A stretch of DNA of 64,000 nt, taken from the NCBI GenBank assembly GCA_900318115.1, contig ONJJ01000008.1, positions 23,698 through 87,697 on the forward strand, in the 5' to 3' direction. Origin of the DNA: an uncultured Prevotellaceae bacterium (GTDB taxonomy: Bacteria; Bacteroidota; Bacteroidia; Bacteroidales; Bacteroidaceae). Position 1 is the stretch's first letter. Every line of letters starts with the position of its first letter. Positions 13,357 through 57,938 of the stretch are shown here, piece after piece. Position numbers and translations under genes: made by a program. The notes below the pieces were generated by a model. It was not told the DNA's origin. It made no database searches and was given only the letters and a program-made list of their open reading frames with translations.

Positions 13357-14415
13357 ATGAAGATAGGAACAATAGATTTGGGCGAGCGGCCTGCGCTGCT
13401 GGCGCCCATGGAAGACGTGACGGATATCGGTTTCCGGCTCCTGTGCCGACGCATGGGGGCTGCCATGGTGTATTCTGAATTTGTGGCGGCCGACGCCCTC
13501 GTGCGGATGGTCAACAAGAGCCTGCGCAAGCTTGAGGTCTGCCCCGAGGAGCGCCCCGTGGCCATTCAGATCTACGGCAAGGAGCCTGGTCCCATGGCCG
13601 ATGCCGCGCGCATCGTGGTCGAGCAGGCACACCCTGATGTGCTGGACCTCAACTTCGGTTGCCCCGTGAAGAAGATTGCCACCAAGGGTGCCGGTGCAGG
13701 ACTGCTGCGCGACATCCCCAAGATGCTGGACATCACGCGGGCTGTGGTCGATGCCGTGGGGTCGCAGGTGCCAGTCACCGTGAAGACACGCCTCGGCTGG
13801 GACCACGAGCACAAGATTATCGTGGAGCTGGCAGAGCAGCTGCAGGACTGCGGCATCTCGGCTCTCACCATCCACGGCCGCACGCGCTCCCAGCTCTATT
13901 CCGACCAGGCGGACTGGACACTTATCGGCGAAGTCAAGAAGAACCCTCGCATGCACATTCCCATCATCGGGAATGGCGACATCACCTCCGCCGAGCGTGC
14001 CGTGGAAGCCTTCGAACGATGGGGCGTAGATGCCATCATGGTCGGTCGGGCCACCTTCGGCAGGCCCTGGATATTCAGGGAGATTGTGGAGAAGACCCAC
14101 CCCCAGACTCCTCCCGTCAGGGAGGGGAGCCCCTCCGGCTTGGCTGCTGGTCTCGCCGGGGAGGGTCAACTCACTCTGGACTGGAAGCTGGACATCCTGA
14201 AGGAGCAAGTCCTCACCTCCGTGGCGCGCTCCAACGAGCTCAGCGGCATCCGCCACATCCGCCGCCACCTCGCCGCCACACCCCTCTTCAAGGGCATCCC
14301 CGACTTCCGCCAGACTCGCATCCGTATGCTGCAGGCCGAGACCGTCGATGAACTCTTCGAGGTCATGGAGCACACGCGCACACTCCTCCACCGCCAATTA
14401 AGAATTAAAAATTAA
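13357..14415 (+). CDS. dusB: tRNA-dihydrouridine synthase (DusB type) with in-frame palindrome insertion
   Basis: FMN enzyme reducing uridines in the tRNA D-loop; 352 residues, cytoplasmic. Motifs in order: LLAPMEDVTDIGFRLLCRRMG at the barrel start, LDLNFGCPVKKIATKGAGAGLL containing the catalytic Cys, TVKTRLGWD, TIHGRTRSQLYSDQADW, and IIGNGDI for phosphate binding. After RPWIFREIVEKTH a stretch of about 17 residues (PQTPPVREGSPSGLAAGLAG) is encoded by a GC-rich palindromic element (14106-14166) of the type that fills intergenic DNA in this window. This part of DusB is normally a short loop before the helical domain (here LDWKLDILKEQVL). The last codons (QLRIKN, stop) lie inside an AATTAAAAATTAAAAG repeat. 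Confidence 0.92.
   Translation: MKIGTIDLGERPALLAPMEDVTDIGFRLLCRRMGAAMVYSEFVAADALVRMVNKSLRKLEVCPEERPVAIQIYGKEPGPMADAARIVVEQAHPDVLDLNFGCPVKKIATKGAGAGLLRDIPKMLDITRAVVDAVGSQVPVTVKTRLGWDHEHKIIVELAEQLQDCGISALTIHGRTRSQLYSDQADWTLIGEVKKNPRMHIPIIGNGDITSAERAVEAFERWGVDAIMVGRATFGRPWIFREIVEKTHPQTPPVREGSPSGLAAGLAGEGQLTLDWKLDILKEQVLTSVARSNELSGIRHIRRHLAATPLFKGIPDFRQTRIRMLQAETVDELFEVMEHTRTLLHRQLRIKN
14106..14166. repeat. GC-rich palindromic element inside dus
   Basis: CTCCCgtcaGGGAG, followed by a second palindromic pair CCCTCC ... GGAGGG, inserted in frame between barrel and C-terminal domain. It resembles the CTCCCCCC-AAGGGGGGAG elements at 20.3-22.7 kb. Confidence 0.65.
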
Positions 14416-14448
14416 AAGAGAAAAATTAAAAATGAATTAAAAACGAAA

Positions 14449-14564
14449 AATAAGAAGCTCAAGTTTCGCAAGTATGTCAACAGTCAGTAAGGGAGCGCCC
14501 CGAAGGGGCAATAAGATGTCAGCCCTTTCAGGGCGTTATTTACTTGCGAAACTTGAATAAGAAG
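14449..14564. mobile_element. MITE-like element with 15-base terminal inverted repeats
   Basis: CAAGTTTCGCAAGTA at 14460-14474 is exactly inverted as TACTTGCGAAACTTG at 14541-14555. The interior holds two small hairpins (GCCCCgaaGGGGC and GCCCTttcAGGGC). AATAAGAAG occurs on both sides (14449-14457 and 14556-14564), as a target-site duplication would, though the left copy is two bases away from the repeat. It encodes no protein. Confidence 0.6.
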
Positions 14565-14587
14565 TAGATGAACACCATTGGTTTACA

Positions 14588-14651
14588 TTTTAGACACAGA
14601 GGCACAGAGAAAAAATAATCTTCTCTGTCCCTCTGTGCCTCTGTGTCTAAA
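14588..14651. repeat. Inverted repeat, 'acacagaggcacagag' family
   Basis: TTTAGACACAGAGGCACAGAG (14588-14608) is exactly inverted at 14631-14651 with a 22-base AT-rich loop. Related copies lie at about 14735-14765, 21301-21390, 21535-21570 and 63470-63535. Confidence 0.8.
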
Positions 14652-14831
14652 TACATAATCCCCTTCCCCTTATAATAAATTTTTCTCTTTTAATTCATTT
14701 TTAGTTTTTCTCTTTTAATTTTTAATTCTTCTTCTCTGTGCCTCCGTGCCTCTGTGTCTAAATACATAAATATCCCCTTCCCCTTATAATTTTTCGTTTT
14801 TAATTCATTTTTAATTTTTCTCTTTTAATTT

Positions 14832-15923: not shown

Positions 15924-15944
15924 GTCTTATAGCTTTCGACGCGG

Positions 15945-15952
15945 CAAAGGTA
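15945..15952 (-). promoter_or_regulatory. -7 box for the M20 gene
   Basis: TACCTTTG on the minus strand, 22 bases upstream of the ATG; no ideal -33 box seen. Confidence 0.5.
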
Positions 15953-16112
15953 CGGAAAAAGTTTAAGGTATATCGTTTAAAGTTCAAGGAAAATGCAGTC
16001 CGCGACGTAAAACCGGAGAATTTTAGGGCTGAAAAAAGGAAAAACGGGGGCGGAAAAGGGAAAACTTTCAACTTCGGGCTTTCAAATGTCCCGCTATTCC
16101 AAAACTTTTGTG

Positions 16113-16120
16113 TACCTTTG
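16113..16120 (+). promoter_or_regulatory. -7 box for the acyl-CoA synthetase gene
   Basis: TACCTTTG, 28 bases before the ATG at 16149. It supports that start over an in-frame ATG at 16086, which lies upstream of the promoter. Confidence 0.5.
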
Positions 16121-16148
16121 TGGCGCTAATAATAAAAAAAGTACGGCT

Positions 16149-17957: not shown

Positions 17958-17998
17958 GTAAATCACATCATCCGTAAATCCCATAATCCGAAAATCCA

Positions 17999-19111: not shown

Positions 19112-19206
19112 GCAGCCCGCAACAACGAGAACAACCACTTCTCATCCTCCCAGCCACCTAAATCCGTAAATCTGTAAATCCGTAAATTTATAAAAACCTA
19201 AGACTT

Positions 19207-19347
19207 ATGAGCAAAGCAAAGAAAGACCTTCGCGCTGCCAAGAAAGCAGCCCGCGAGGAACAGCAGGGAAAACGCATCATCCAGTGGATTGCAGGAATAC
19301 TCGTCGCACTGCTGTTCATCAGCGTACTCTTCTGGGCCATCCTCTAA
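19207..19347 (+). CDS. Small single-pass membrane protein, 46 residues
   Basis: ATG at 19207, stop TAA at 19345-19347. The N-terminal half is very basic (MSKAKKDLRAAKKAAREEQQ) and the C-terminal half is one hydrophobic helix (IIQWIAGILVALLFISVLFW) ending AIL. It sits between prfB and the CYTH gene, 15 bases from the latter, in the same direction. Amphipathic positive head plus TM helix suggests an inner-membrane protein with its N-terminus inside. The function is unknown and I do not recognise a family. Confidence 0.6.
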   Translation: MSKAKKDLRAAKKAAREEQQGKRIIQWIAGILVALLFISVLFWAIL

Positions 19348-19362
19348 GAGCCCCTGCAACCC

Positions 19363-19848: not shown

Positions 19849-19902
19849 ACCCGGAAGACGCAACTATTTCCAAACTGGAAAAAGTTCATCAGGAAACATA
19901 AT

Positions 19903-19936
19903 CAGCCCCCGCTATCCTCTCGGACGGCGGGGGCTG
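19903..19936 (+). terminator. Hairpin after CYTH gene
   Basis: CAGCCCCCGC and GCGGGGGCTG form a perfect 10-base stem with a 14-base loop, 54 bases after the CYTH stop. A T-rich run does not follow directly, so it may be a terminator or a boundary to the minus-strand island. Confidence 0.6.
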
Positions 19937-19999
19937 CAACGTCTGACATTCCATAAAAAACCTATCCTTTATTCACCATGTATGAAAGAGAGCTGTTCG

Positions 20000-20196: not shown

Positions 20197-20574
20197 TGTG
20201 TTTTGAGTTTAGAGTTTAGAGCTTTTTTCTAAGTTTAGAGTTTCTCAGTTTTAAGTGACGCGGATTACACGGCTTTTATCTTTCGTTTGATCCACGTGGC
20301 ACTCGAAAGCAGCGTAGCCTTTCGCACTTAGCCCCCCTCTAACTCCCCCCAGGGGGGGAGGACTTCGTTTCCGCTGGAACTATTGAAGAACCGCGTTAAT
20401 CCGCGTCCATCCGTGGTCTTTTAATTCGCTGTGCGCGAGCCCGTTTCCGCTTAGCCCCCCTTCAGCTCCCCCGAGGGGGAGGGTTCATGTCCGGCTGCCT
20501 AACTGGAGTCCTCCCCCCTTGGGGGGAGTTAGAGGGGGGCTGGAGGGGGGCTGGGGGGCTGGAGGGGGTGGGCT
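20197..20574. repeat. Repeat-filled gap between HU-like and smalltalk genes
   Basis: No gene is visible. It contains AGTTTAGAG tandem units (20205-20250) and a dispersed repeat (20255-20460) beginning ACGCGGATTACACGGC and including CCGCGTTAATCCGCGTCC, which recurs at 23858-23990. It also contains three CCCCCCTCTAACTCCCCCC/GGGGGGAG-type palindromes at about 20330-20362, 20452-20482 and 20509-20542. Confidence 0.8.
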
Positions 20575-21300: not shown

Positions 21301-21584
21301 GCTATCCATTTCAGTACACAGCGACGCAGAGGACGTCGTGCAAAAATGAGAAACTTATAAACCCTGTGCCTCTGTGTCTCTGTGTCCTAAAGATTGTGAT
21401 TTAAATCGATTGACGAAAAGATTGACGAAAAGATTGACGATAAGATTGACGATGATTGACGTCCCAAATAAAAGCGATTAAGTCGTCAATCGACGTCAAT
21501 CTAATCATCAATCGGAATCATTAGTTTCATTTTAGGACACAGAGTCACGGAGGCACAGAGAATAAATTATAATTTTCTAATTTT
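21301..21584. repeat. Gap with 'acacagag' relics and 12-base iteron-like repeats
   Basis: GATTGACGA occurs at 21408, 21420, 21432 and 21444 with exact 12-base phasing, plus a fifth partial unit at 21454. Inverted copies (TCGTCAATCG at 21483, ACGTCAATC at 21493, ATCAATCGG near 21508) follow. Both flanks carry remnants of the 'acacagaggcacagag' family. No gene is seen. Confidence 0.8.
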
Positions 21585-21995: not shown

Positions 21996-22158
21996 ACTTT
22001 TGTTTGTTTGTTTGTTTTTTTGTTTATTTATTTGTTTTTCTTTCTTCTCTTTCTTTATATAGGGGTGCAGGGGGAAAACCTTTCTTTCTCTTCTTTCTTA
22101 AAAGGCTTACACGGAGGCTGGAAAAGGCCCCGCCGCGGTGGGTGGTGGAGGGAGGACA

Positions 22159-22290
22159 GCCCCCCTCCAGCTCCCCCCAAGGGGGGAGGGAAGCGTTTCC
22201 GCTTAGCCCCTCTCTAACTCCCCCTAAGGGGGGGAGGACTGCGTTTCCGCTTAGCCCCCCTCTAACTCCCCCCAAGGGGGGAGGACTTCG
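22159..22290. repeat. Tandem array of GC-rich palindromes (three copies)
   Basis: Three units of about 47-50 bases, each an AGCCCCCCTCTAACTCCCCC / AAGGGGGGAGG hairpin followed by a GCGTTTCCGCTT spacer, lie head to tail upstream of the 136-residue gene's neighbour. Single copies lie at 22613-22660 (inside a gene), 23188-23225 and 28130-28165. Confidence 0.85.
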
Positions 22291-22357
22291 TTTCCGCTTG
22301 TTTTCATAGATTCACTTTTCCTTTTTTACTTCATTTTTCTTTTTTCTCTTTTAATTT

Positions 22358-22678
22358 TTAATTTTCTTCAAACCCTATGAGTCTGTCGCGGATGAGGCAT
22401 CGCCAGCCTCCGCGCTGCGTGTCCCAGTAGTTCAACAGGAACGCAGGCGGCGTCTTAAGCCCCTTGGGGTGGTACTCGGGCGGTATGATGGCGTGGCAGC
22501 GCGTGCCGTAGGCATCGCGCAGGCTACCGTCCTTCTTGCGGTAGATCATGTGTACGATGCGCAGGGAGAGCTCGTGCTCCAGCGCCTCGATGTCCTCGTT
22601 GTAGATAATGACGGAGGGGGGGCAGCCCCCCTCCAGCTCCCCCCAAGGGGGGAGGGAAGCGTTTCCGTTTGTTTTCAT
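22358..22678 (-). CDS. DUF2693-like SH3-fold small protein with palindrome-encoded N-terminus
   Basis: 106 residues. Residues ~25-105 (IIYNEDIEALEHELSLRIVHMIYRKKDGSLRDAYGT and following) look like the DUF2693/WYL_2-like small beta-barrel family common in Bacteroidales phages and islands. The first 22 residues (MKTNGNASLPPWGELEGGC..) are encoded by a GC-rich palindrome (22613-22660), so either the protein gained a new N-terminus or translation really starts later. No good internal ATG precedes the barrel until the Met in VHMIY. The stop codon is supplied by an AATTAAAAATTAAAAG repeat. Function unknown. Confidence 0.6.
   Translation of the reverse strand: MKTNGNASLPPWGELEGGCPPSVIIYNEDIEALEHELSLRIVHMIYRKKDGSLRDAYGTRCHAIIPPEYHPKGLKTPPAFLLNYWDTQRGGWRCLIRDRLIGFEEN
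22613..22660. repeat. GC-rich palindrome inside the DUF2693-like gene
   Basis: Hairpin CCCCCCTCCAGCTCCCCCC / AAGGGGGGAGG followed by GAAGCGTTTCCG, the same element and spacer as the array at 22159-22290, read in frame on the minus strand. Confidence 0.8.
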
Positions 22679-23857: not shown

Positions 23858-23990
23858 ATTAGACCACGGATTACGCGGATTACACGGCTTTTATCTTTCG
23901 TTTCCGCTGGAATTATTATAGAACCGCGTTAATCCGCGTCCATCCGCGATCTTTTAATTCGCCGTGCGCGAGCCCGCTTCCGCTTGCTCG
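23858..23990. repeat. Second copy of the 'acgcggattacacgg' dispersed repeat
   Basis: Shares ACGCGGATTACACGGCTTTT, CCGCGTTAATCCGCGTCCAT and the GTGCGCGAGCCCG..TTCCGCTT tail with the copy at 20255-20460. The internal palindromic GCGGATTA / TAATCCGC halves could fold. It overlaps the 3' end of the 45-residue gene and provides its stop codon. Confidence 0.8.
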
Positions 23991-26310: not shown

Positions 26311-26329
26311 ATTTTGTGCAGAAAAAGTG

Positions 26330-26540
26330 GGGTTGATGGGGTTGATGGGGGTTGATGGGGGTTGATGGGGTTGATGGGGTTAATGGGGTTAATGGGGGTG
26401 ATGGGGTTAATGGGCGGGCTGCCCCGCGGGGTGATGCGGGCTGCGCCGCGGGGTGATGCGTCCTGTGCCGCGGTGTGATGCGGGCTGCACCGCGACGTAA
26501 ACGTTCGGACGCCACGGTGTGCAGGGCCACACGCCGTGGT
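26330..26540. repeat. Two successive tandem repeats, G-rich
   Basis: 26330-26412: about nine GGTTGATGGG/GGTTAATGGG units of 9-10 bases. 26412-26540: four degenerate units of about 22 bases of the form GCGGGCTGCgCCGCGGGGTGAT. The first block has many GGG/GGGG runs in series and could form G-quadruplexes on the plus strand. The gap 26213-26744 contains no gene. Confidence 0.85.
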
Positions 26541-28118: not shown

Positions 28119-28235
28119 GTTGTTTTAAAAGGCGGACCCCCTCCCCGCTCCCCCTAAAGGGGGAGAGCAGTATGTGCTTGAGCGGTAGAGGCGGAATCCA
28201 TTTTTTTTGAGGTTATTAATGAATTTGTTGGGTGA

Positions 28236-45042: not shown

Positions 45043-46467
45043 ATGAATAATGATCCGAATACAAAGGTTTCTGCTCCCACCCTGCCAAGGGAGGGGCGAG
45101 GCGGACAGTCCGCCCGAGGCAACTTCGCCACCCGACTGGGTATCGTCTTGGCCACCGCTGGTTCCGCCGTAGGGTTGGGTAACATCTGGCGTTTCCCCGT
45201 CGAGACGGGTGAGCACGGCGGCGCAGCCTTCATTCTCATCTATCTCCTCTGTGTCATCTTCCTCGGAGTGCCGATGATGACCGCCGAGTTCATCATTGGG
45301 CGTCGCGCACACACAGATATCGCTTCGGCCTATCAGCAGTTGGCACCCCGCCAGCCTTGGTTCTTGACCGGATATGCCGGAATGCTGTGTGTGACGCTCA
45401 TCCTTTCTTACTACTCGGTAGTAGCCGGATGGGTGCTTAAATATGCCGTGGATGCCGCGTCCGGAAGTCTTGCCGGCGTCAGTGACACCGCTTCCTACTT
45501 CACCGCCTTCAGCACCTCCACGTGGTCGCCTCTGCTCTTCGCCCTCGCTTTCTTGTTGCTGACCCACGTCATCATCGTTCGCGGAGTGCAGAATGGCATC
45601 GAGCGTTTCTCCAAACTGCTGATGCCTATACTCCTCCTCATCATGCTCCTGCTGGCAGTTGGTTCCATGACGATGCCCGGCGCTGCTGCCGGTGTGGAGT
45701 TCTTGCTGAAGCCCGATTTCTCAAAGATCGATTCCTCCGTCGTACTCTCGGCGCTCGGCCAGGCGTTCTTTTCGCTTTCGATAGCCATCGGCTGTCTGAG
45801 CACCTACGCCAGCTACTTCAAACCCGACGTGCCGTTGATGAAGACCGCAGCCAACGTCGTAGGCATCGACACCGCCGTGGCCATTCTCTCCGGTTTCATC
45901 ATCTTTCCTGCCGTCTTCTCCGTCCAGGACGTCTCGCCCGATGCCGGCCCCGGCCTCGTCTTCGTCACGTTGCCCCAGATCTTCAACTCCCTCTTCAGCG
46001 GTATCCCTGCGCTCGGCTACGTCTTCTCGCTGTTGTTCTACATCCTGCTGGTGCTGGCCGCCCTGACGAGCACCATCTCCATGCACGAGGAGGTCACCGC
46101 TTTCTTCGTCGATCGCTACAGCACCAGCCGCCGTCGTGCTGCTACCTATATGACCCTGACCACCATCGTGCTGGCTGCGTTGTGCTCGCTCAGCTTCGGT
46201 CCCTTGTCGGACTTCCGCCCCTTCTTCGGCCGTGGCTTCTTCGATGCGTTCAACGATGTCACCGCCCTGTGGATCATGCCTCTCAGCGGCATTGTCCTCA
46301 GCATCTTCGTCGGGTGGCGTCTGCCCAAGTCGCTCGTCATCGAGGAACTGACAAACCACCACACGCTGCGCTATCCCGACTGGCTCTTCCACGGTTTCTT
46401 CTTCCTCATCCGATGGGTGGCACCCATCGCCATCAGCTTCATTTTCCTGAATGAATTGTTAAGTTAA
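45043..46467 (+). CDS. Sodium-dependent SNF-family transporter 2, extended N-terminus
   Basis: 474 residues, a paralogue of the preceding gene's product (24 bases upstream) over the entire LeuT fold: LGIVLATAGSAVGLGNIWRF, VVLSALGQAFFSLSIAIGCL, ALTSTISMHEEV. The first 27 residues (MNNDPNTKVSAPTLPREGRG, then GQSARGN) are absent from the first transporter. They are encoded by a palindromic element (about 45075-45114), including the perfect GGCGGAcagTCCGCC. Loss or gain of this tail is the main difference besides sequence drift. Substrate unknown. Confidence 0.91.
   Translation: MNNDPNTKVSAPTLPREGRGGQSARGNFATRLGIVLATAGSAVGLGNIWRFPVETGEHGGAAFILIYLLCVIFLGVPMMTAEFIIGRRAHTDIASAYQQLAPRQPWFLTGYAGMLCVTLILSYYSVVAGWVLKYAVDAASGSLAGVSDTASYFTAFSTSTWSPLLFALAFLLLTHVIIVRGVQNGIERFSKLLMPILLLIMLLLAVGSMTMPGAAAGVEFLLKPDFSKIDSSVVLSALGQAFFSLSIAIGCLSTYASYFKPDVPLMKTAANVVGIDTAVAILSGFIIFPAVFSVQDVSPDAGPGLVFVTLPQIFNSLFSGIPALGYVFSLLFYILLVLAALTSTISMHEEVTAFFVDRYSTSRRRAATYMTLTTIVLAALCSLSFGPLSDFRPFFGRGFFDAFNDVTALWIMPLSGIVLSIFVGWRLPKSLVIEELTNHHTLRYPDWLFHGFFFLIRWVAPIAISFIFLNELLS
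45075..45114. repeat. Palindromic element in the 5' end of SNF transporter 2
   Basis: CCCTgccaAGGG followed by GGCGGAcagTCCGCC (45100-45114), read in frame. Confidence 0.6.
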
Positions 46468-47786: not shown

Positions 47787-49979
47787 ATGAAACCTGCCAC
47801 CTCTCTGCATCTGATGAAAAGACTGCTCGTCGTTTCTGCATTGCTCTTCTCCTGCAGCCTGCTCTCCGCGCAGCCTGCTCTTCATCTCGGCACTGTCGTC
47901 TCCTGGGACCGCCACAGCCTGCTCTTCGACGGCCGCCGCGTATGCCCTGTCATGGGAGAAATCCACTACAGCCGCGTGCCTGCACAGGAGTGGCCTGCGG
48001 AGGTTCGTAAGATGCGCGAAGGGGGCGTCACCATCATCGCTACCTACGTCTTTTGGAATCATATCGAGGAGCAGGAGAATCAATTCGACTGGAGCGGGCA
48101 GCGCGACCTGCGACGTTTTCTCGAGGTCTGCAAGGCTGAGGGCATGCCCGTGGTACTGCGTATGGGGCCGTGGTGCCACGGCGAGGTGCGCAATGGCGGC
48201 CTGCCCGACTGGTTGTTCCAGAAGCAGTGCCGTGTGCGCTCCGAGGACTCCACCTTCCTGGCCTATACCACCCGCCTCTACCGCCAGATCTTCACACAGG
48301 TGCAGGGGCTTCAGTGGAAGGACGGCGGCCCCGTGCTGGCCGCTCAGTTCGACAACGAATATCGTGGCCCCGCCTCCTACCTGCTCGCCCTGAAACGCAT
48401 TGCCCTCAGCATCGGGTTCGACCTTCCGTTCTACACCCGCACGGGGTGGCCCGAGCTCACCACTCCTATGCCTTTCGGCGAGATGTTGCCTCTCTTCGGG
48501 GACTATGCCGATGGCTTCTGGGACAAGAGCACCCAGGAAGGTGTCGGCAGCTATTACAAGGCGTTTAATTTCAAGGGACAGCGCGTTTCCACGTCCATCG
48601 GAACGGATTTCCTTACTTATTCCAGCGATTCCGTGTCTGATGCCAAGCGCAAGTTATCAAGCACTTACCCCTACTTCACCTGCGAACTTGGAGGCGGAAT
48701 GGCCACAGCCTACCACCGCCGTCCCTACGTCTATCCCGAGGATGCCTATTCCATGGCGCTGGTGAAATTGGGCAGCGGCAGCAACCTCCTTGGATATTAC
48801 ATGTACCACGGCGGCACCAACCCCGAAGGACGCCTGAACACCCTCAACGAGTGCCAGACCTCCCCCTTCACTGCCAACAACGACCTGCCCGTTTGCACCT
48901 ATGACTTCCAGGCTCCGCTGGGTGAGTTCGGCCAGACCTATCCGCAGTACTACCGCCTGCGCCCCCTGCACCTCTTCATGCAGGACTTCGGCGAGCTGTT
49001 GGCACCCATGGAGGCCACCTTCCCTGCAGCGCAGGATCTGAAGCAGGCCGACGACTCTGCGCTGCGCTGGTCTGTGCGTGCCGATGGAAAATCCGCCTTC
49101 GTCTTCTTCAATAACTACGAGCGCTTCGCCAACCTCACGGCCAAGCGAGCCGTACAATTTGAAGCCTGCGGCGTCCGCTTCCCGCAGAAACCGATCACCA
49201 TCCCTGCAGGCTGCGCTGCCATCTTCCCCGTGAACGTGGCGGGGCTCCGCTATGCCACCGCTCAACTGGTTTCCTGTCGCGATGGCAAGATCTGCCTGAT
49301 GCAGGTTCCAGGTATTCCCACGACCATTGTCCTTCAGAACGGCAGGACGCTGAACAACGTCAAACCCCAGGGACTTGCGCGTCCGGTCTGTGATAACATC
49401 TATTTGCTCAGTCGTGATGAGGCCGAACACCTCTACTTGCCACAGCGCGCCGAACTGAAGCGTACCGACGTCCCCTTCCTCCGCTTACTGACGGCTGGCA
49501 CCCCTCGTTCCATCCAGAAAGGCAAGGCCAAGGTCGCCGCGGCTCCCACCGAGGAGGACTGGCAGCAGGCTGCCGTTTACCGCATCAAGATCGGGAGAGG
49601 CAGCAACGCAGCACAACTCTCGAGAGAAAATCCCGCCCCCTCCCTTGCAGGTAAGCAGGACGCGGCCCCCTCCCTCCCCCTTCTCTCTATCACCTATCGA
49701 GGTGACTGTGCCCGCCTCTATGCCATCATCCCCGCCTCTGCCAGCCCCAGTTCCATCACCGCCACCTCCGTAGGCTCCTCCGCCCGCCGCCTTGTCGCGG
49801 ACAACTTCTACTACGGCCGTCCCTTCCTCTATGGCCTCTGGCGCCTGCCCGCTGGTTGCGAGGAACTGGAACTGCGCATCCTCCCCCTCCAACCTGATGC
49901 TCCCATCTACCTACCCCGCGAGGCAGACCGCACCCCCGGCGAAGCTCTCTCCTCCATCTCCCTCATCCCCTGCAAATAA
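47787..49979 (+). CDS. GH35 beta-galactosidase-like, secreted
   Basis: 730 residues. Signal peptide MKRLLVVSALLFSCSLLSAQ, starting at the internal Met 10; the ATG at 47787 is two bases after the previous stop and is kept as the coupled start. GH35 barrel: MGEIHYSRVPAQEWPAEVRK, WNHIEEQENQFDWSGQRDL, VLRMGPWCHGEVRNGGLPDW. GGPVLAAQFDNEYRG has NEY as acid/base, and FTCELGGGM probably provides the nucleophile Glu. Near the C-terminus an insertion (SRENPAPSLAGKQDAAPSLP; 49630-49680) with CCCTCCC-type DNA looks like a degraded palindromic element. C-terminal beta domains follow. Confidence 0.87.
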   Translation: MKPATSLHLMKRLLVVSALLFSCSLLSAQPALHLGTVVSWDRHSLLFDGRRVCPVMGEIHYSRVPAQEWPAEVRKMREGGVTIIATYVFWNHIEEQENQFDWSGQRDLRRFLEVCKAEGMPVVLRMGPWCHGEVRNGGLPDWLFQKQCRVRSEDSTFLAYTTRLYRQIFTQVQGLQWKDGGPVLAAQFDNEYRGPASYLLALKRIALSIGFDLPFYTRTGWPELTTPMPFGEMLPLFGDYADGFWDKSTQEGVGSYYKAFNFKGQRVSTSIGTDFLTYSSDSVSDAKRKLSSTYPYFTCELGGGMATAYHRRPYVYPEDAYSMALVKLGSGSNLLGYYMYHGGTNPEGRLNTLNECQTSPFTANNDLPVCTYDFQAPLGEFGQTYPQYYRLRPLHLFMQDFGELLAPMEATFPAAQDLKQADDSALRWSVRADGKSAFVFFNNYERFANLTAKRAVQFEACGVRFPQKPITIPAGCAAIFPVNVAGLRYATAQLVSCRDGKICLMQVPGIPTTIVLQNGRTLNNVKPQGLARPVCDNIYLLSRDEAEHLYLPQRAELKRTDVPFLRLLTAGTPRSIQKGKAKVAAAPTEEDWQQAAVYRIKIGRGSNAAQLSRENPAPSLAGKQDAAPSLPLLSITYRGDCARLYAIIPASASPSSITATSVGSSARRLVADNFYYGRPFLYGLWRLPAGCEELELRILPLQPDAPIYLPREADRTPGEALSSISLIPCK

Positions 49980-50037: not shown

Positions 50038-53000
50038 ATGCAGCGTTCCCCTCTCTCCCTCCTCATCATCCTCTTGCTCAGCGTAGGCAGCGGCAGTGCC
50101 GCTGCACAGGAACTCCTTGACCTCTCCGGCTCCTGGCACCTCACTTCGCGCCTGGCTGCCACCTCCGTCAACCTCCCCGGCTCACTCCTCACCAACGGCC
50201 TCGGCGACGACATCACCCCCACCACTCGATGGACCGGCTCCCTCTACGACTCCAGCTACTACTTCAATCCCTTCATGGAGCCCTACCGTCGCGCCGGCAA
50301 TATGTCCTTCCCCTTCTTCCTCACCCCTCGGAAACACTTCGTGGGTGAGGTCACCTACAGCCGCACCGTCGCCATTCCCAAGTCCTGGCGCCGCCAGCAG
50401 GTCACCCTCTTCCTCGAGCGTCCGCACATCGAGACCACCGTCGTCGTCAACGGTCACGCGGTAGGCCACCAGATGAGCCTCTCCGTCCCTCATCAGTATG
50501 ACATCACCCCTTACCTCCGCTTCGGCCGTGACAACGAAATCGCCATCCGCGTTTACAACGGTATCGAGAACGTCTGCGTCGGACAGGACTCCCACAGCGT
50601 CACCGACCAGACCCAAGGCAACTGGAACGGCATCGCCGGGCGCATAGAACTGCGCACCACACCTTATATTTACAAGCAGCGCGTCATCACAGACCTCGAT
50701 AGCCAGATCGCACACATCACCATTAACGAACAGTCTTTCCTCGTGCATGTGCCAGGAGCGAAGCCGTGGAACGAACACTCGCCACAACTCTACACGGCCA
50801 CGGTTGTCTATCACGGCCAGCCCGTACGCGTTACCTTTGGTTTCCGAGAGGTCGCCGTGCGGGGCCGGGACATCCTGCTCAACGGCCGTCCCATCCACCT
50901 GCGCGGCACCGTGGAGAACTGCTGTTTCCCCGAGACGGGCTTCCCGCCCACCGACACCGCCTCCTGGGAACGCATTTTCCGCATTTGCAAGGACTTCGGC
51001 CTCAACCACATGCGATTCCACAGCTACTGCCCGCCCGAGGCTGCCTTCGTCGCTGCCGACCGCCTGGGCTTCTACCTTCAGCCCGAAGGACCTTCGTGGC
51101 CCAACCACGGTGTGAAGCTCGGCAACGGGATGCCCATCGACAAATACCTCGCCGACGAGTGCCGTGCCATCCTCGACCGCTACGGTCACCACCCCTCCTT
51201 CATCATGCTTGCCGCTGGCAACGAGCCCGCAGGCAACTGGGTCAAGTGGGGCGCTGACTTCGTCCAGGAGATGAAAGCCTACGACCCCTCCCGCATATAT
51301 TGCACCGCCAGCGTCGGCGGCGGATGGGAATGGGACTACGGCTCGGAATACCACGTCAAGGGTGGTGCCCGCGGACTTGAGTGGAACCGCCGCCAGCCCA
51401 GCAGTGATGATGACTTCGCAGAGCAGATAGCCAAGCCGAGGAACTACAGACCCGCCCCCACACGTCAAGGAAACCAGGCCTCCGGCCAGGGAAAGGATGG
51501 CATCGCGCAGCAGCTCCCATCACAGAATGGAGAAGGCGTGGCTTCTCCTGGCGTCCTCATCAGCCACGAGCAAGGCCAGTGGTGCGCCTTCCCCGACTTC
51601 AAAGAAATCCCTCAATACACCGGTGTTTACAAGGCTGCCAACTTCCAGATCTTCCGCGACCTGCTCGCAGCCCACGGCATGGCATCGCAGGCCGAGAAGT
51701 TTCTGATGGCCAGCGGACGGCTGCAGGTGCTCGCCTACAAATATGAGATAGAGCGCCACCTGCGTACCCCTGGCTACGCTGGCTTCCAGCTCCTGGCCCT
51801 CAATGACTACAGCGGTCAGGGCACCGCCCTCGTCGGTCCCCTCAACGTCCATTGGCGAGAGAAGGGCTACTGCACCGCCGCCGACTGGCGCGAGTTCTGC
51901 AGCGACCTCGTCCCCCTCGCCCATTTCCCCCGCTTCACCTTCCAGACCTCCGACACCCTCCGCATCCCTGTCACCCTCTACGACGCCACCACTAATGCCC
52001 CCTCTTCCTCTCCCTCCCTTTCCCCTGCTCCCTCTCCCTCCCCCGCTCTCTCTCTTTCTCCCTCTCCCTCTTTCTCTTCTCTCTCCTCCTCCTCTTCTCT
52101 TTACTCCTCCTCTTCTCTTTCCCCCTCTCCCTCTCTTTCCTCTTCTCTCTCCTCTCCCTCCCCTTGTCCGCAGGCTGTTGGGTGCCCCGCGTATTCGCGG
52201 GGAGCTTCCAGCGTCCCCCGCTCCCTCGCCTACACCATCACCCTCGGCTCCGCCGTCCTCCAGCAGGGCACCTGCTCCCCCGGTGACATCATCACCTTCC
52301 TCCCTTCTGCCCTCAATCGCGCCTCCAAGCTCACCCTCACCCTCACTGCCGACGCCACCCACCGGAACCACTGGGATTTCTGGGTCTATCCCTCCTTCCC
52401 CTCCGATTCCTCCCCCTCCTCCCCCCACAATCCCTCCCCCTCCGTCATCATCTGCGACCTCTCATCCTCAAAGGTATCCGCTCCCTCCCTCACAGGGAGG
52501 GCGGGGGGTGGGTCTGTCCTCGAGGCTCTGGAGGCGGGAAAGGATGTCCTCCTCCTTGCTGGCGGCCAGATCAAGTACGGCAACGACGTCGTCCACCGCT
52601 TCCTGCCCGTCTTCTGGAACACCTCGTGGTTCAAGATGAAACCGCCCCACACCACGGGCGCCCTCATTCAGGCCGAGCACCCCCTCTTCCGTGACTTCCC
52701 CACCGACGACTGGCAAGACCTCCAATGGTGGGAACTCACCAACCGCGCCCAGTGCATCAACCTCGCAGAGTTCCCTGCGGACTACCAACCCATCGTGCAG
52801 CCCATCGATACCTGGCACCTCTCGCGCAAGCTCGGCATGCTCCTCGAAGCCCGTGTCGGCAAGGGACGCCTCATCCTCACCACCTTCGACCTCTCCAGTG
52901 ACCTCGACCGTCGCATCGTAGCCCGCCAACTCCGCTATAGCATCCTCCGCTACATGCAGAGCCCCGACTTCCAGCCCACTCTCAACCTCTCCCCGGATGT

Positions 53001-53097
53001 CCTCCGCCATCTCTTCGAGCGCGAAGCCCCGGCTGTAGATATGTTCACTCGCGAGTCGCCTGATGAACTCAAACCGAAATTCTCCAACCAGAACTGA
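50038..53097 (+). CDS. GH2-type glycosidase with large low-complexity insertions, secreted
   Basis: 1019 residues; signal peptide MQRSPLSLLIILLLSVGSGS. GH2 order: sugar-binding jelly roll (about 80-210), Ig-like domain, TIM barrel with GLNHMRFHSYCPPEAAFVAA. The acid/base Glu is in LAAGNEPAGNW and the nucleophile is probably the Glu in LISHEQGQWCAF. Four insertions of intergenic character interrupt it. They are a Gln/Asn-rich loop (RPAPTRQGNQASGQGKDG), a Ser/Pro tract of about 55 residues from polypyrimidine DNA (51994-52160), a CCCCGCGtattCGCGGGG palindrome (52185-52202), and a GGGAGGG element (52483-52512) encoding APSLTGRAGGGS. A C-terminal glutamine-amidotransferase-like or beta domain follows. 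Substrate unknown. Confidence 0.83.
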   Translation: MQRSPLSLLIILLLSVGSGSAAAQELLDLSGSWHLTSRLAATSVNLPGSLLTNGLGDDITPTTRWTGSLYDSSYYFNPFMEPYRRAGNMSFPFFLTPRKHFVGEVTYSRTVAIPKSWRRQQVTLFLERPHIETTVVVNGHAVGHQMSLSVPHQYDITPYLRFGRDNEIAIRVYNGIENVCVGQDSHSVTDQTQGNWNGIAGRIELRTTPYIYKQRVITDLDSQIAHITINEQSFLVHVPGAKPWNEHSPQLYTATVVYHGQPVRVTFGFREVAVRGRDILLNGRPIHLRGTVENCCFPETGFPPTDTASWERIFRICKDFGLNHMRFHSYCPPEAAFVAADRLGFYLQPEGPSWPNHGVKLGNGMPIDKYLADECRAILDRYGHHPSFIMLAAGNEPAGNWVKWGADFVQEMKAYDPSRIYCTASVGGGWEWDYGSEYHVKGGARGLEWNRRQPSSDDDFAEQIAKPRNYRPAPTRQGNQASGQGKDGIAQQLPSQNGEGVASPGVLISHEQGQWCAFPDFKEIPQYTGVYKAANFQIFRDLLAAHGMASQAEKFLMASGRLQVLAYKYEIERHLRTPGYAGFQLLALNDYSGQGTALVGPLNVHWREKGYCTAADWREFCSDLVPLAHFPRFTFQTSDTLRIPVTLYDATTNAPSSSPSLSPAPSPSPALSLSPSPSFSSLSSSSSLYSSSSLSPSPSLSSSLSSPSPCPQAVGCPAYSRGASSVPRSLAYTITLGSAVLQQGTCSPGDIITFLPSALNRASKLTLTLTADATHRNHWDFWVYPSFPSDSSPSSPHNPSPSVIICDLSSSKVSAPSLTGRAGGGSVLEALEAGKDVLLLAGGQIKYGNDVVHRFLPVFWNTSWFKMKPPHTTGALIQAEHPLFRDFPTDDWQDLQWWELTNRAQCINLAEFPADYQPIVQPIDTWHLSRKLGMLLEARVGKGRLILTTFDLSSDLDRRIVARQLRYSILRYMQSPDFQPTLNLSPDVLRHLFEREAPAVDMFTRESPDELKPKFSNQN
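51994..52160 (+). repeat. Polypyrimidine tract inside the GH2 gene
   Basis: Almost uninterrupted C/T on the plus strand (CCCTCTCC/TCTTCTCT units), encoding a Ser/Pro/Leu run. It is the same kind of tract as 33241-33375 but in frame and intragenic. Confidence 0.85.
52185..52202. repeat. Palindrome inside the GH2 gene
   Basis: CCCCGCGtattCGCGGGG, a 7-base perfect stem next to the polypyrimidine tract, encoding part of CPAYSRGAS. Confidence 0.7.
52483..52512. repeat. GC-rich palindromic element inside the GH2 gene
   Basis: CTCCCTcacAGGGAG followed by GGCGGGGGGTGGG, encoding PSLTGRAGGGS; same style as the elements in dus and transporter 2. Confidence 0.65.
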
Positions 53098-53098
53098 T

Positions 53099-54403
53099 AT
53101 GTACAACAAAGGCTTTCTTTATTTTATCTGCTCCGTATCTGCCATGGGCGGTCTGCTCTTTGGCTACGACTGGGTGGTTATTGGCGGTGCCAAGCCGTTC
53201 TATGAATTGTACTTTGGTATTGCAAACTCGCCAGTGATGCAGGGCGTGGCGATGACGACGGCACTCATCGGTTGCCTTGTGGGTGCAATGGTGGCAGGTG
53301 CTGCTGCCGACCGCTATGGGCGCAAGCCGCTTCTGACGCTTTCGGCGGTGCTGTTCACGGTGTCTGCTATCGGCACAGGTCTGTTCAATGACTTCACCTT
53401 ATTTAATATAGCGCGCTTCGTGGGCGGCGTAGGTATCGGTGTAGCCTCGGCGCTGGCTCCTATGTACATTGCCGAAGTCAGTCCTGCTCATATCCGCGGG
53501 CGCATGGTCAGCCTGAACCAGATGACCATCGTGCTGGGAATCCTGGCGGCACAGGTGGTGAACCTGCTGTTAGCTCGCGACACCAGTGTGGCCGAGAGTC
53601 AGGCGTGGAACGTGGCATGGGGCTGGCGTTGGATGTTTTGGGCGGAGACGCTGCCCGCTGCCCTATTCCTCATGATGAGTTTCTTCATTCCAGAGAGCCC
53701 TGTGTATGAAAGAATGAAAAAGAAGAGAAGCCCCGTCCCGTCCTCCCCCAAGGGGGAGGAGAACTGTAGGAGAAGCGATTCTAATGTAATTTCCTCCTTG
53801 TGGGAGAACAGGAGGGGGCTTCGCAAGGTATTGCTGCTTGGCCTGGTCATCGCGGTCTTCCAGCAGTGGTGTGGCACGAACGTCATCTTCAACTACGCTC
53901 AGGAGATATTCGTGGGTGCCGGCTTTGATGTGGACGGTATGTTTATCAACATCGTCATCACGGGTATTGCCAATGTTGTCTTCACCTTCGTGGCGCTCTA
54001 TACTATTGAGAAGTGGGGACGGCGGACACTGATGCTGCTGGGAGCCGGCGGGCTGGGTGTGATCTACGCCGTCCTAGGCTACTGCTACTATCAGCAACAG
54101 ACGGGCTTCGCGATGGTGGCACTCGTGGTGGCTGCCATCTCGGTTTATGCCATGACGCTGGGGCCTGTCACGTGGACCCTGTTGGCAGAGATTTTCCCCA
54201 ACCGCGTGCGTGGCTTGGCCATGGCTATCTGTACGTTCGCCTTGTGGGTGGGTTGTTGTACGCTGACATTCTCCTTCCCCTCGATGAATGCGGCGCTGGG
54301 CAGCAGCGGCACCTTCTGGGTGTACTCTGCCATCTGTGCATGTGCCTTCGTGTTCCTCTATCGCAACTGTCCTGAGACGAAAGGCAGGGAGTTGGAGGAA
54401 TAA
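53099..54403 (+). CDS. MFS sugar porter
   Basis: 434 residues, 12 TM helices, sugar-porter branch of the major facilitator family. Signatures: GGLLFGYDWVVIGGAKPFYE (TM1), RYGRKPLL (loop 2-3), IYIAEVSPAHIRGR-like MYIAEVSPAHIRGRMVSLNQ, FQQWCGTNVIFNYAQEI (TM7, sugar-binding QQ/N), PVTWTLLAEIFPNRVRG, and PETKGRELEE at the C-terminus. ATG at 53099, one base after the GH2 stop TGA; an in-frame ATG at 53063 lies inside GH2. The central cytoplasmic loop contains a palindromic insertion, PVPSSPKGEENCRR (53738-53775). Likely imports a mono- or disaccharide released by GH35/GH2. Confidence 0.92.
   Translation: MYNKGFLYFICSVSAMGGLLFGYDWVVIGGAKPFYELYFGIANSPVMQGVAMTTALIGCLVGAMVAGAAADRYGRKPLLTLSAVLFTVSAIGTGLFNDFTLFNIARFVGGVGIGVASALAPMYIAEVSPAHIRGRMVSLNQMTIVLGILAAQVVNLLLARDTSVAESQAWNVAWGWRWMFWAETLPAALFLMMSFFIPESPVYERMKKKRSPVPSSPKGEENCRRSDSNVISSLWENRRGLRKVLLLGLVIAVFQQWCGTNVIFNYAQEIFVGAGFDVDGMFINIVITGIANVVFTFVALYTIEKWGRRTLMLLGAGGLGVIYAVLGYCYYQQQTGFAMVALVVAAISVYAMTLGPVTWTLLAEIFPNRVRGLAMAICTFALWVGCCTLTFSFPSMNAALGSSGTFWVYSAICACAFVFLYRNCPETKGRELEE
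53738..53775. repeat. GC-rich palindromic element in the MFS central loop
   Basis: CTCCCCCaaGGGGGAG with short flanks, in frame between TM6 and TM7. Confidence 0.7.
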
Positions 54404-54443
54404 TATGAGAATAAAAGAATAAGAATTTCAATACTACGAAAAA

Positions 54444-57400
54444 ATGGTAAAAGCTTGGAGTGAACTACTCACCATCCCTACTTATGAGGTGGGTAAACCT
54501 GAAAAGAATCCAATGTTCCTGGAGAAGCGTGTCTACCAGGGCAGCAGTGGTGTGGTCTATCCCTATCCCGTGATCGAGAAGATTGCGGACGAGAAGGTGG
54601 ACCGTGAGTACCTGGCGGTATGGATAGAGAACGAATACATCAAGGTGATGATTCTGCCTGAACTGGGCGGTCGTGTGCAGATGGCCTACGACAAGATTCG
54701 TCAGCGTCACTTCGTCTACTACAACCACGTCATCAAACCAGCTCTAGTAGGACTTACGGGCCCGTGGATCAGCGGCGGCATCGAGTTCAACTGGCCGCAG
54801 CACCATCGCCCTTCTACCTTCCTGCCCGTGGACCACAAGATCGAGGAGGGCGAGGACGGCAGTGTCACCGTCTGGTGCAACGAGATGGAGCGGATGTTCC
54901 ATCAGAAGGCACTGGTAGGTTTCACGCTGCGTCCGGGGTGTGCGTACCTGGAAATCAAGGGTCGCCTCAGCAACCGTACACCGCTTCCCCAGACGTTCCT
55001 TTGGTGGGCAAACCCCGCCGTGGAGGTGAACGATGCGTACCAGAGTGTGTTCCCGCCAGACGTGAACGCGGTCTTCGACCACGGCAAGCGTGCCGTCTCT
55101 AGTTTCCCCGTTGCCACGGGTACGTACTACAAGATGGATTACAGCGCTGGCGTGGACATCTCGAACTATCGGAACATCAAAGTGCCCACCAGCTATATGG
55201 CCGTGAACTCCAAGTACGACTTCGAAGGAGGCTATGAGAACGACACCCAGGCTGGTATGCTGCACGTCGCCTCCCATCATTTCTCACCTGGCAAGAAGCA
55301 GTGGACCTGGGGCAACGGCGACTTCGGAAGGGCTTGGGACAGGAACCTGACAGATCCAGTCTCGGAGGGAGAGTCTTACTATCGCCCCTACATCGAGCTG
55401 ATGGCAGGCGTCTACACGGAGAACCAGCCGGACTTCACATGGCTGATGCCCTACGAGGAGAAGCAGTTCACGCAGTACTTCATGCCCTACCGTGAGTTGG
55501 GTGTGGTGAAGCAGGCTACCAAGGACTTCGTGTTCAATATCGAGGAAATTAAAGAAGTAAAAGAGGAAAGAGAAGCAACCAAAGAGGTGATGTCTGCAGT
55601 CCGCTTCAAGGTGCTGGCCACATCGAAGCAGACGGTACGTCTCACCCTGAGCGGCCCATTCAGGGAGACTCTCTATGAAAAAGTGGTCACGCTCTCGCCC
55701 GAAGCCGTCTTTGAGCAGGTTGTCGATATGAAGGGCATTCAGTTTACTGACCTCTACTTCACCATAAATCCACCGGATGAATTGCCGATGACCCCACTGA
55801 TGGAGTGGATGGCAGAACTTGATGAGGTGCGCCCCATCCCCGATTCTGCCGAGGCAGCACTGCCGCCAGTGGAGTGCAAGACCGTGGATCAGCTCTACCT
55901 GACGGGCCTGCACCTGGAGCAGTACCGCCATGCCACGTGGTCGGCACTCGACTACTACGAGGAGGCACTGCGCCGCGACCCCAACGACGTGCGTTGCCTG
56001 AACCAGATGGGACTCTGGTACCTCCGCCGCGGACGGTTCCAAAAGGCAGAGGAATACCTGCGCCGTGCCGTGAAGATATGGCAGCGCCGCAACCCTAACC
56101 CCTACGATGGTGAACCCGTCTTCAACCTCGCGCTTGCACTGAAGTTCGGGATGAAGGAAGACGAAGCCTACGAATGGTTCTGGAAAGCATCCTGGAACAA
56201 AGCTTGGGCGGACGCGGCTTTCTTCGAAGCTGCACGAATCAGCATCTGCAACGAGCGCTATGTTGATGCTCTCGACGAACTGGAGCGCTCACTCATCAGC
56301 AACAGCCACAACCATCAGGCACGTGCGCTCAAGGCCACCGTGCTGCGTAAGCTGGGGCGCAAGGACGAGGCACTGCGCTGGATTGCCGAATCCTACAAGA
56401 TCGACCCGTTCAACTACGTATGCATGGTGGAAGAGCACCTGCTCAGCGGTAGCGAAGAGCCCCTGCAGCGTATGATCCAGTTGATGAACGGCCAGGTGAA
56501 GAACTACCACGAGACCGCCCTCGAATACATGGCTGCCGGACTCAATGAAGAGGCTCAGCTGGTGCTGCAGCTGGCTCTGAAGCCTGAGGTGGAAGCATCA
56601 CCCCTTACCTATTATTATCTGGCTTGCATATCAAATATAGACGAAGCAGGACTATGGCTGGAGAAGGCTGCAGCGGCCGACCCGGCCTGCTGCTTCCCCA
56701 ACCGCCTGGAGGATGTTAAAGTGCTGACCATCGCCATCGAGATGAATTCCGAGGACGCCCGTGCTCCCTACTACCTCGGCTGCCTGTACTACGCCGCCCG
56801 ACAGTATGACCTTGCCATCGAGAACTGGGAACTCTCGGCGAAGCGGGATCCGCAGTTCCCCACCGTCTGGCGCAACCTGGCGCTGGCGCGCTTCAACAAA
56901 CAGGGGCGTCAGGACGAGGCCGTGGAGTACATGGAGCGTGCCTTCCACCTCGACGAGGACGATGAGCGCGTGCTCATGGAGTTGGACCAGCTCTACAAAC
57001 GCCTGCAGCGGCCTCATGCCCAGCGCCTGACTTTCCTCCAGCAGTATCCCGAACTCATCCAGCGTCGCGACGATCTCGTGCTCGAGGAAATCACTCTGCT
57101 GAATCAGGTAGGACGCTACGAAGAAGCCATGCAGAAGCTGGACCATCACATCTTCCACCCCTGGGAGGGTGGCGAAGGCAAGGTGCCGGCGCAGTATCAG
57201 TTCTGCCGCGTGGAACTGGCGAAACGCTTTCTAACAGAAGCCTCAGAAACCCCAGATGTCCCTGAAGCCTCAGGGAAGATTCAGCGGGCTATTAAACTAC
57301 TGACCGAGTGTCTGGAATATCCCCACCACCTCGGTGAAGGCAAGCTCTATGGTGCTCAGGAGAATGACTTTCACTATCTCCTCGGTCTGGCCTATGAACA

Positions 57401-57938
57401 GCAAGGCGACCTCGACGAGGCCCGCAGCCACTACGAACTGGCCACACAGGGTCCCACCGAGCCCGCTGCGGCCATGTACTACAACGACGCCAAACCCGAC
57501 AAGATCTTCTACGCCGCCCTCGCCTACCGCCGTCTGGCCGCCCTCGCCTCCTCCTCTCCCACCTCTGCAGCTTCTCCCTCCGTCTCCCTCTCTTCGGTTT
57601 TCCCTTCGGCCGTGGGTCCTGTGGTCGGCGGTTTGTCCGCCGACGCCCTCCTCGCTCGCGCCAACAGCCTCTGCTACAAGCTCCTGAACTATGGTCAGCA
57701 GCACCTCTTCGACGAGGTCGTCATGGACTACTTCGCCGTCTCGCTGCCCGACCTCCTCATCTGGGACGGCGACCTGCAGGAGAAGAACACCATCCACTGC
57801 AACCTCATGATGACCCTTGGACATCTGGGGCTGGGGCATAAGGAAAAGGCGCTCCACTTCCTTGGAGAAGTAGAACGCCTGGATGTGAATCATCCAGTGC
57901 CGCCTGCTCTGCGTTCGCTGATGGAGTTGGGGCTGTAG
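54444..57938 (+). CDS. DUF5107-TPR protein, 1164 residues
   Basis: No signal peptide. Residues ~1-340 are the DUF5107 domain (MVKAWSELLTIPTYEVGKPE ... LPELGGRVQMAYDKIRQRHF ... GGIEFNWPQHHRPSTFLPVD). This is a beta-rich fold reminiscent of aldose-epimerase/mutarotase-like sandwiches. Residues ~500-1150 are TPR helices (YYEEALRRDPNDVRCLNQMG, YLGCLYYAARQYDLAIENWE, AVEYMERAFHLDEDDERVLM and others). A Ser/Pro insertion with a GTCGGCGGtttgtCCGCCGAC palindrome (57540-57644) interrupts the last TPRs. Last gene of the long operon, 40 bases after the MFS gene; cytoplasmic sugar handling is plausible but the activity is unknown. Confidence 0.85.
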   Translation: MVKAWSELLTIPTYEVGKPEKNPMFLEKRVYQGSSGVVYPYPVIEKIADEKVDREYLAVWIENEYIKVMILPELGGRVQMAYDKIRQRHFVYYNHVIKPALVGLTGPWISGGIEFNWPQHHRPSTFLPVDHKIEEGEDGSVTVWCNEMERMFHQKALVGFTLRPGCAYLEIKGRLSNRTPLPQTFLWWANPAVEVNDAYQSVFPPDVNAVFDHGKRAVSSFPVATGTYYKMDYSAGVDISNYRNIKVPTSYMAVNSKYDFEGGYENDTQAGMLHVASHHFSPGKKQWTWGNGDFGRAWDRNLTDPVSEGESYYRPYIELMAGVYTENQPDFTWLMPYEEKQFTQYFMPYRELGVVKQATKDFVFNIEEIKEVKEEREATKEVMSAVRFKVLATSKQTVRLTLSGPFRETLYEKVVTLSPEAVFEQVVDMKGIQFTDLYFTINPPDELPMTPLMEWMAELDEVRPIPDSAEAALPPVECKTVDQLYLTGLHLEQYRHATWSALDYYEEALRRDPNDVRCLNQMGLWYLRRGRFQKAEEYLRRAVKIWQRRNPNPYDGEPVFNLALALKFGMKEDEAYEWFWKASWNKAWADAAFFEAARISICNERYVDALDELERSLISNSHNHQARALKATVLRKLGRKDEALRWIAESYKIDPFNYVCMVEEHLLSGSEEPLQRMIQLMNGQVKNYHETALEYMAAGLNEEAQLVLQLALKPEVEASPLTYYYLACISNIDEAGLWLEKAAAADPACCFPNRLEDVKVLTIAIEMNSEDARAPYYLGCLYYAARQYDLAIENWELSAKRDPQFPTVWRNLALARFNKQGRQDEAVEYMERAFHLDEDDERVLMELDQLYKRLQRPHAQRLTFLQQYPELIQRRDDLVLEEITLLNQVGRYEEAMQKLDHHIFHPWEGGEGKVPAQYQFCRVELAKRFLTEASETPDVPEASGKIQRAIKLLTECLEYPHHLGEGKLYGAQENDFHYLLGLAYEQQGDLDEARSHYELATQGPTEPAAAMYYNDAKPDKIFYAALAYRRLAALASSSPTSAASPSVSLSSVFPSAVGPVVGGLSADALLARANSLCYKLLNYGQQHLFDEVVMDYFAVSLPDLLIWDGDLQEKNTIHCNLMMTLGHLGLGHKEKALHFLGEVERLDVNHPVPPALRSLMELGL
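57624..57644. repeat. Palindrome inside the DUF5107-TPR gene
   Basis: GTCGGCGG-tttgt-CCGCCGAC, 8-base perfect stem, encoding VGGLSADA next to a Ser/Pro run. Confidence 0.7.

Follow-up and report, generated by a model that had tools for sequence, protein, structure and literature searches.

REPIN-like palindromic elements in an uncultured Prevotellaceae bacterium and their occurrence in frame inside genes

Rickettsia palindromic elements (RPEs) are described, in passages of PMC10969869 and PMC3767692, as palindromic repeats of ~100-150 bp that occur both between genes and in frame inside unrelated open reading frames (ORFs), where they encode a recurrent peptide; a similar mechanism in other prokaryotes is deemed conceivable in a passage of the former. 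According to sections of PMC6006769, the presumed movers of repetitive extragenic palindromic (REP) elements are HuH enzymes known as TnpA_REP or REP-associated tyrosine transposases (RAYT); the same paper reports REPs in frame in the tnpA of RAYT subclass 2.4, which Cyanobacteria and Bacteroidetes have in abundance. Additionally, sections of PMC3733652 place REPs inside ORFs of several species with repair genes among the hosts, give the highest intragenic counts for O. terrae and R. conorii, and name Bacteroidetes among the phyla with CGTC repeats. Presented here are the GC-rich palindromes of a 64,000-nucleotide stretch (the window; G000:C32:23698-87697) from an uncultured Prevotellaceae bacterium (own genome, G000; assembly of 3.33 Mb in 74 contigs). 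The closest framework for them is that of REPs and their inverted pairs, the REP doublets forming hairpins (REPINs), and they are probably miniature mobile elements, REP/REPIN-like in kind and carried by a Prevotella-like genus, some of which landed in frame inside genes.

According to a preliminary description of the window, GC-rich palindromes are abundant between genes and eight such stretches lie in frame inside at least seven unrelated genes. All eight were found in place, each enclosed by an ORF, and in seven a perfect GC-rich hairpin is present, its arms 6 or longer; the stretch in the GH35 gene (49630-49680) lacks one. The reported abundance was borne out: the window has 21 hairpins with arms of at least 8 and loops of 2-5, whereas 30 order-2 Markov simulations averaged 5.1 and never exceeded 10, and CTCCCN{1,12}GGGAG has 229 places in the whole own genome against 65 for the reversed control pattern. 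The eight sites represent at least three families (types A, B and C), a decayed copy and a palindrome without family; a single element family is ruled out, as the three types are unlike in hairpin and tail.

Type A is a 46-nt REP-like unit, AAAGGTAACCGCT-CCCTCCCTnnnAGGGAGGG-CGGGGGGAGGGTCT, which occurs singly or as an inverted pair (REPIN). The 71 strict DNA-pattern copies taken from the sister genomes G003 (all 37 strict places, including L328, L330 and L331) and G016 (34 of 47) align to a sharp consensus, AAAGGTAACCGCT-CCCTCCCT-nnn-AGGGAGGG-CGGGGGGAGGGTCT, the unit reaching from ~13 nt ahead of the hairpin start to ~32 nt beyond it. Clusters were collected from G000, G003 and G016 with weaker profile matches (E-value up to 0.02) included, giving 79, of which 11 come from 464 kb of the own genome; 34 of the 79 are inverted (-+) pairs, and paired elements have a profile extent of 106-261 bp. 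The strict pattern is present in 36 of 61 genus genomes, the own one included, and missing from 25, with no match in the reversed control of any of the 61. It has 51 places in the own genome and up to 77 in one sister, type A being, as REPs and REPINs are, a short palindrome in many copies per genome. Outside the genus it was met in 2 of 246 genomes of an order-wide sample, as a single match with one mismatch in each. The family looks genus-bound and variable between species.

Placement relative to genes was called for the 79 clusters by a hexamer coding model with the own genome as its training set. Applied to 4000 random points, this model gave the same frame for 2625, coding on one side only for 1045, no coding for 163, a different frame for 103 and a different strand for 64. 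Miscalls are to be expected, such as the L160 kinase pair, which by eye is read through and was classed as having one coding flank only. Sixteen of the 79 clusters lie in frame and stop-free through ORFs that are coding on both sides (1/11 in G000, 11/38 in G003 and 4/30 in G016). The others comprise 20 with both flanks coding on one strand, 13 of them in different frames and 7 in the same frame with a stop codon, together with 1 between opposite strands, 38 with one coding flank and 4 with none. For the 20 same-strand discordant clusters (13 + 7), the upstream stop codon falls between -3 and +6 nt relative to the element in 18 and lies 44 and 38 nt into it in the other two. For non-in-frame clusters with an upstream gene reading in, it falls at -3 to +8 nt in 28 of 32, which makes the position directly behind a stop codon a common type A place; scored on these 32 clusters, type A is mainly extragenic and near gene 3' ends, in the manner of REPs and REPINs. 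Among the 79 clusters of the three genomes none was clearly an out-of-frame insertion into an intact gene, with two clusters unexplained and the one-flank class giving no verdict. The profile scan of related genomes that the preliminary description had proposed thus returned type A copies both intergenic and in frame, and its central claim, that dispersed intergenic elements also stand in frame in unrelated genes, is upheld by the 16 clusters as by the open frames around all eight window stretches.

Complete REPINs encode a recurrent peptide, DPPPALPVREG...APSLTGRAGGGS, and a search started from a kinase met the repeat-encoded stretch again in further long ORFs, both in the own genome and in sister genomes. 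Within fetched regions, 30 of 38 places of the peptide lie in ORFs of at least 225 aa, a proportion biased by selection on the peptide. The 16 in-frame clusters were found by DNA pattern or profile and not by peptide; by eye, 11 of them use the DPPPALPVREG/APSLTGRAGGGS frame wholly and 1 partly. Among the 71 aligned copies the forward frames are open in 67, 61 and 29 and the reverse frames in 26, 66 and 50, the peptide frame being the one open in 61 forward and 66 reverse. An inverted pair gives a much alike peptide from either strand, and this likeness together with the open frame can account for the recurrence of the peptide without special selection. As with RPEs, the element is thus found in frame inside unrelated ORFs and with a recurrent peptide in a preferred frame.

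Concerning the host proteins, a Pfam scan that covered 20 of the 30 listed host ORFs identified MnmG, FeoAB, Mfd, UxaA, SdaA, PurL, a CobC-CobQ fusion, an AAA helicase, a DHH protein, an OmpR-type DNA-binding-domain protein and UvrA. By our own count, two domain matches flank the element in 9 of the 20; in 6 it falls inside or splits a domain (SdaA, the helicase, MnmG, a flippase, GT2 and an AIR-synthase-like protein), in 4 it is beside a domain or in an unclear position, and one host has no Pfam match. A kinase homologue in G018 is without the element. The same linker is reused by inserts in sister species in MutS2 and the kinase (by eye), and the same linkers are hit in sister species in MnmG and UxaA. 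Specifically for the own genome, Fmt (L166 537-1622) has a REP-like N-terminal extension, its alignment to the solved enzyme starting at residue 22; a type C hairpin lies in frame between its domains, and one more hairpin sits within the C-terminal one.

The type B hairpin has the form CTCCCCC..GGGGGAG and covers the DUF2693-like and MFS sites of the window; its 13 places divide into 4 flanked by one and the same coding frame, 2 with a single coding flank and 7 with none. Type C is a GCGG..CCGC hairpin, for example GTCGGCGGTTTGTCCGCCGAC, to which the DUF5107 site belongs. In 464 kb of the own genome it was matched at 8 places, and a reversed-sequence control had 0. Of the 8, 4 are flanked by the same coding frame, 3 have one coding flank and 1 has none, and one of the eight is inside the HuH gene L003. 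The features of the window are the following.

14091-14167, minus strand: insert in dus at the junction of TIM barrel and helical domain (edges approximate)
20330-20540: three intergenic type B copies
22146-22298: intergenic array of three type B copies
22613-22660, minus strand: type B element at the N-terminus of the PF10902 (WYL_2; DUF2693-like) gene 22358-22678
28135-28169: type B-like copy, neither flank called coding
45056-45114, plus strand: type A-like REP at the N-terminus of SNF transporter 2 (45043-46467), a weak match (nhmmer E-value = 0.012)
49630-49680, plus strand: decayed REP-like stretch in the GH35 gene (47787-49979), peptide APSLAGKQ (by eye)
52185-52202: palindrome CCCCGCGTATTCGCGGGG in a Ser/Pro-rich stretch of GH2
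52461-52520, plus strand: type A REP inside the GH2 gene (50038-53097), peptide KVSAPSLTGRAGGGS
53738-53775, plus strand: MFS porter (53063-54403), type B hairpin placed in a variable loop and flanked on either side by the same coding frame
57552-57659, plus strand: insert of 33-36 aa in the DUF5107 gene (54444-57938), with a type C hairpin at 57624-57644

Type A has three members in the window, one clear (the hairpin at 52483 in GH2), one weak (SNF transporter 2, which has a second small hairpin at 45100-45114) and one assigned by eye (dus). The GH2 REP matches the 71-copy profile (nhmmer E-value = 1.8e-15) as well as the strict pattern, and its flanks are coding in the same frame, stop-free. 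The dus insert appears to hold a diverged type A REP at about 14094-14129 besides further hairpin sequence; the hairpin and its GGGGGTGGGTC tail were matched by a regular expression on the minus strand, on which the assignment rests, as there was no nhmmer profile match at E 1. The type B copy in the DUF2693-like gene has 35 nt identical to the intergenic copy at 22158-22192, and the PF10902 match in its protein begins at residue 30. The GH35 stretch has no closed hairpin and no profile match; an in-frame REP-like stretch is also present in a GH35-like gene of Xylanibacter ruminicola D31d (L026). The GH2 palindrome at 52185 was assigned to no repeat family, and no search aimed at one was made.

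The comparison with orthologues that the preliminary description had called for (insert scored as lacking at no more than 40% and as carried at 60% or more of its residues) gave unequal results. In DUF5107 the insert residues are lacking in 79 of 79 orthologues, by which the stretch is a clean insertion; the best relatives of DUF5107 are mostly Prevotellaceae/Bacteroidaceae from rumen and gut. In dus they are lacking in 20 of 30, with 7 carrying other residues and 3 intermediate, and the sister genome G003 has a short linker at the site, all of which supports an insertion there as well. For these two genes, most orthologues in the case of dus, the idea of the same residues shared by all distant orthologues therefore failed. 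The evidence is mixed for GH2-52483 (lacking in 16 of 36, carried in 19, intermediate in 1) and for GH35 (lacking in 6 of 21, carried in 7, intermediate in 8). The residues of the MFS site are carried by 59 of 72 orthologues and lacking in 1, which makes it a variable loop rather than a demonstrated insertion; REP-like sequence stands at the same place in L063 and L032. A count of at least seven genes was consequently too strong: it stands for DUF5107 and dus, and is weakened by the MFS loop, by the mixed GH2 and GH35 sites and by the N-terminal position of the SNF transporter 2 and DUF2693-like copies. In structure models, predicted order is low at the insert of both proteins modelled: pLDDT (predicted local distance difference test score) is below 50 at residues 252-267 of dus, a low-confidence stretch between helices, and at residues 1039-1060 of DUF5107, between two helices, in a model with a poor N-terminal part and a mean pLDDT of 66.1.

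Two of these genes showed further features. The dus linker of 3 of 25 relatives (L100, L109 and L111, sister species) holds other repeat-like inserts by eye, with GTTGACAAG and GGTGAGAG repeats and a different REP-like hairpin. The GH2 region 51976-52240 is a long Ser/Pro-rich stretch that is mostly missing from 9 aligned orthologues, one of which has ~12 residues.

The own genome has three matches to PF01797 (HuH/Y1 transposase); L003 alone scored 21.2 bits, under the cut-off of 23. L003-like HuH matches occur in 38 of the 61 genus genomes, 28 of which hold type A copies, and the type A count correlates with the number of HuH matches (rho 0.53, kinship ignored). Type C-like hairpins lie inside the HuH ORFs L238-L241. 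By eye, the internal hairpin of L003/L238 stands between the HuH part and the Tyr part. At a contig end, the HuH (PF01797) gene L002 778-1828 adjoins GTAGGGGCATACCCCCGTGTATGCCC, a GTAG-tagged REP form, and upstream of it are in-frame repeats of the peptide THRRGIPPCMP. The L003 family as mover of type A is unsupported by position (0 of 29 loci) and has the copy-number correlation only.

Type A resembles the REP/REPIN (RAYT) systems in its short high-copy hairpins, frequent inverted pairs and place behind gene 3' ends, in the several families per genome and in the presence of HuH genes in the genome. It differs from them in the visible share of copies in frame inside genes. With RPEs and Wolbachia palindromic elements, likened by description, it shares intergenic and in-frame copies and a recurrent peptide, so that the Rickettsia-like character proposed in the preliminary description holds in these respects; it differs in belonging to another phylum, in its GC-rich Pro/Gly/Arg peptide and in being built of two inverted REP units, and the REP/REPIN framework is closer. 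The elements are also similar to the intragenic GTAG/CGTC REPs of PMC3733652, being in frame in unrelated ORFs, with repair genes as hosts and hairpins inside HuH ORFs (L238-L241). No report of in-frame REPs across Bacteroidales genes was found in the open-licence PMC literature, a scope that leaves aside the supplementary intragenic list of PMC3733652. The assumption that nothing similar had been described in Bacteroidales holds to that extent and needs qualification, as Bacteroidetes-linked REPs in tnpA are known; in the sections concerned of PMC6006769 the Bacteroidetes-linked in-frame case is tnpA itself, whereas here many unrelated genes are involved.

The phenomenon is real and wider than first described, and is best seen as a REPIN-like element with a frequent coding form. 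For the mobile-element reading, family membership, copy number, inverted pairs, in-frame read-through and the absence from orthologues at some sites are direct observations. The type A unit, used singly or as an inverted pair of ~106-261 bp, would be mobilised by a HuH (TnpA_REP/RAYT-like) enzyme, and genes that read towards an intergenic copy usually end, at their stop codon, no more than a few bases from it. Some insertions would fall in genes. Four of the six frames of the GC-rich unit are open in most copies, so that those of net length divisible by three would add ~17-85 residues in loops, linkers or termini. The inserts are presumably translated, judging from their reading frames. Selection would remove out-of-frame copies, disruptive ones being lost and those kept being nearly neutral. 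Several points weigh against this account. The 71-copy consensus has no GTAG/GGAG or CGTC tag at the hairpin foot, and no type A copy was found in 29 HuH loci at E 1e-3, hence no REPtron arrangement, so that type A is taken as REPIN-like in behaviour and not as a proven member of the RAYT-REP systems. Type A is held by 8 of the 23 genomes without a HuH match and by none of 10 of the 38 with one. Two discordant clusters have no adjacent stop codon as explanation, the 38 clusters with one coding flank gave no verdict on frame, several window sites (MFS, GH2 and GH35 by their orthologue counts) are not clean insertions, and many genomes are incomplete, so that assembly error may lie behind some inserts, though the named strain Xylanibacter ruminicola D31d likewise has its in-frame REP-like stretch in a GH35-like gene.

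Three other explanations compete with the mobile element. The inserts could be loops of low complexity, either ancestral or drifting, in which Pro/Gly/Ser linkers of high GC content look palindromic by composition and were never inserted; the MFS loop and partly the GH2 and GH35 sites, whose residues are carried by many orthologues, and the long Ser/Pro stretch of GH2 agree with this. The hairpins, however, far exceed those of simulated sequence, GH2-52483 and the sister in-frame copies match the profile that also fits copies lying behind stop codons, down to the AAAGGTA motif at the flank, and the insert is lacking in all DUF5107 and most dus orthologues. Dispersed copies of the unit further argue against it for types A and C, which does not apply to MFS and GH2-52185, and overall we regard such loops as improbable. 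Mobile bypassing elements exist in yeast mitochondria, and strong hairpins within coding sequence would suit a ribosome that bypasses the hairpin or an RNA segment that is removed, the insert then staying untranslated. Bypassing would lift the constraint on frame, yet the 16 in-gene copies are in frame and stop-free and 18 of the 20 discordant clusters look intergenic by their edge stop codon; with such a constraint seen, and two clusters unexplained, we give this explanation very little credence. Finally, inserts could be adaptive coding modules, kept since the added linker alters or regulates the host protein. In favor of this, sister species have inserts at identical linkers (dus, MutS2, kinase, MnmG and UxaA), and UvrA, MutS2 and Mfd are among the hosts, repair genes being listed among REP hosts in sections of PMC3733652 too. 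Different repeats and frames at the same site, functionally unrelated hosts and inserts predicted to be disordered in both models made suggest instead that tolerance suffices, and adaptation is an unlikely cause, if slightly less so than low-complexity loops.

A bolder form of the mobile-element reading is that a free-living Prevotella-like lineage remodels its proteome by a mobile coding module, a linker stop-free on two strands whose coding ability aids the survival of the element. The inverted design of the REPIN, with the same linker on either strand, would then explain why ~1 in 5 clusters (16/79) are carried in genes, and new linkers would be seeded repeatedly at the same sites in sister species. 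We put it forward tentatively, as a possibility that we would not favor at present.

Apart from the palindromes, the window holds distinct dispersed repeats around CTCTGTGCCTCTGTGTCT and its complement (14577-14769, 21358-21560 and 63461-63543), two 89-nt copies that are 92% alike and hold CCGCGTTAATCCGCGTCCATCCG (20364-20452 and 23897-23985), and short tandem repeats (26329-26501 and 10162-10287) made of GGGGTTGAT units of 9-10 nt, 22-nt units and 9-nt GAGTAATCn units.

The best-known in-frame palindromes are those of intracellular Rickettsiales, and other bacteria supply further cases. The Prevotella-like case is dense and species-variable, and its sister genomes give filled and empty sites of the same gene, which would let neutrality, the rate of gene disruption and the moving enzyme be tested. 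Where an enzyme of these bacteria has an odd insert rich in Pro and Gly, the insert may stem from a repeat and not be a functional domain.

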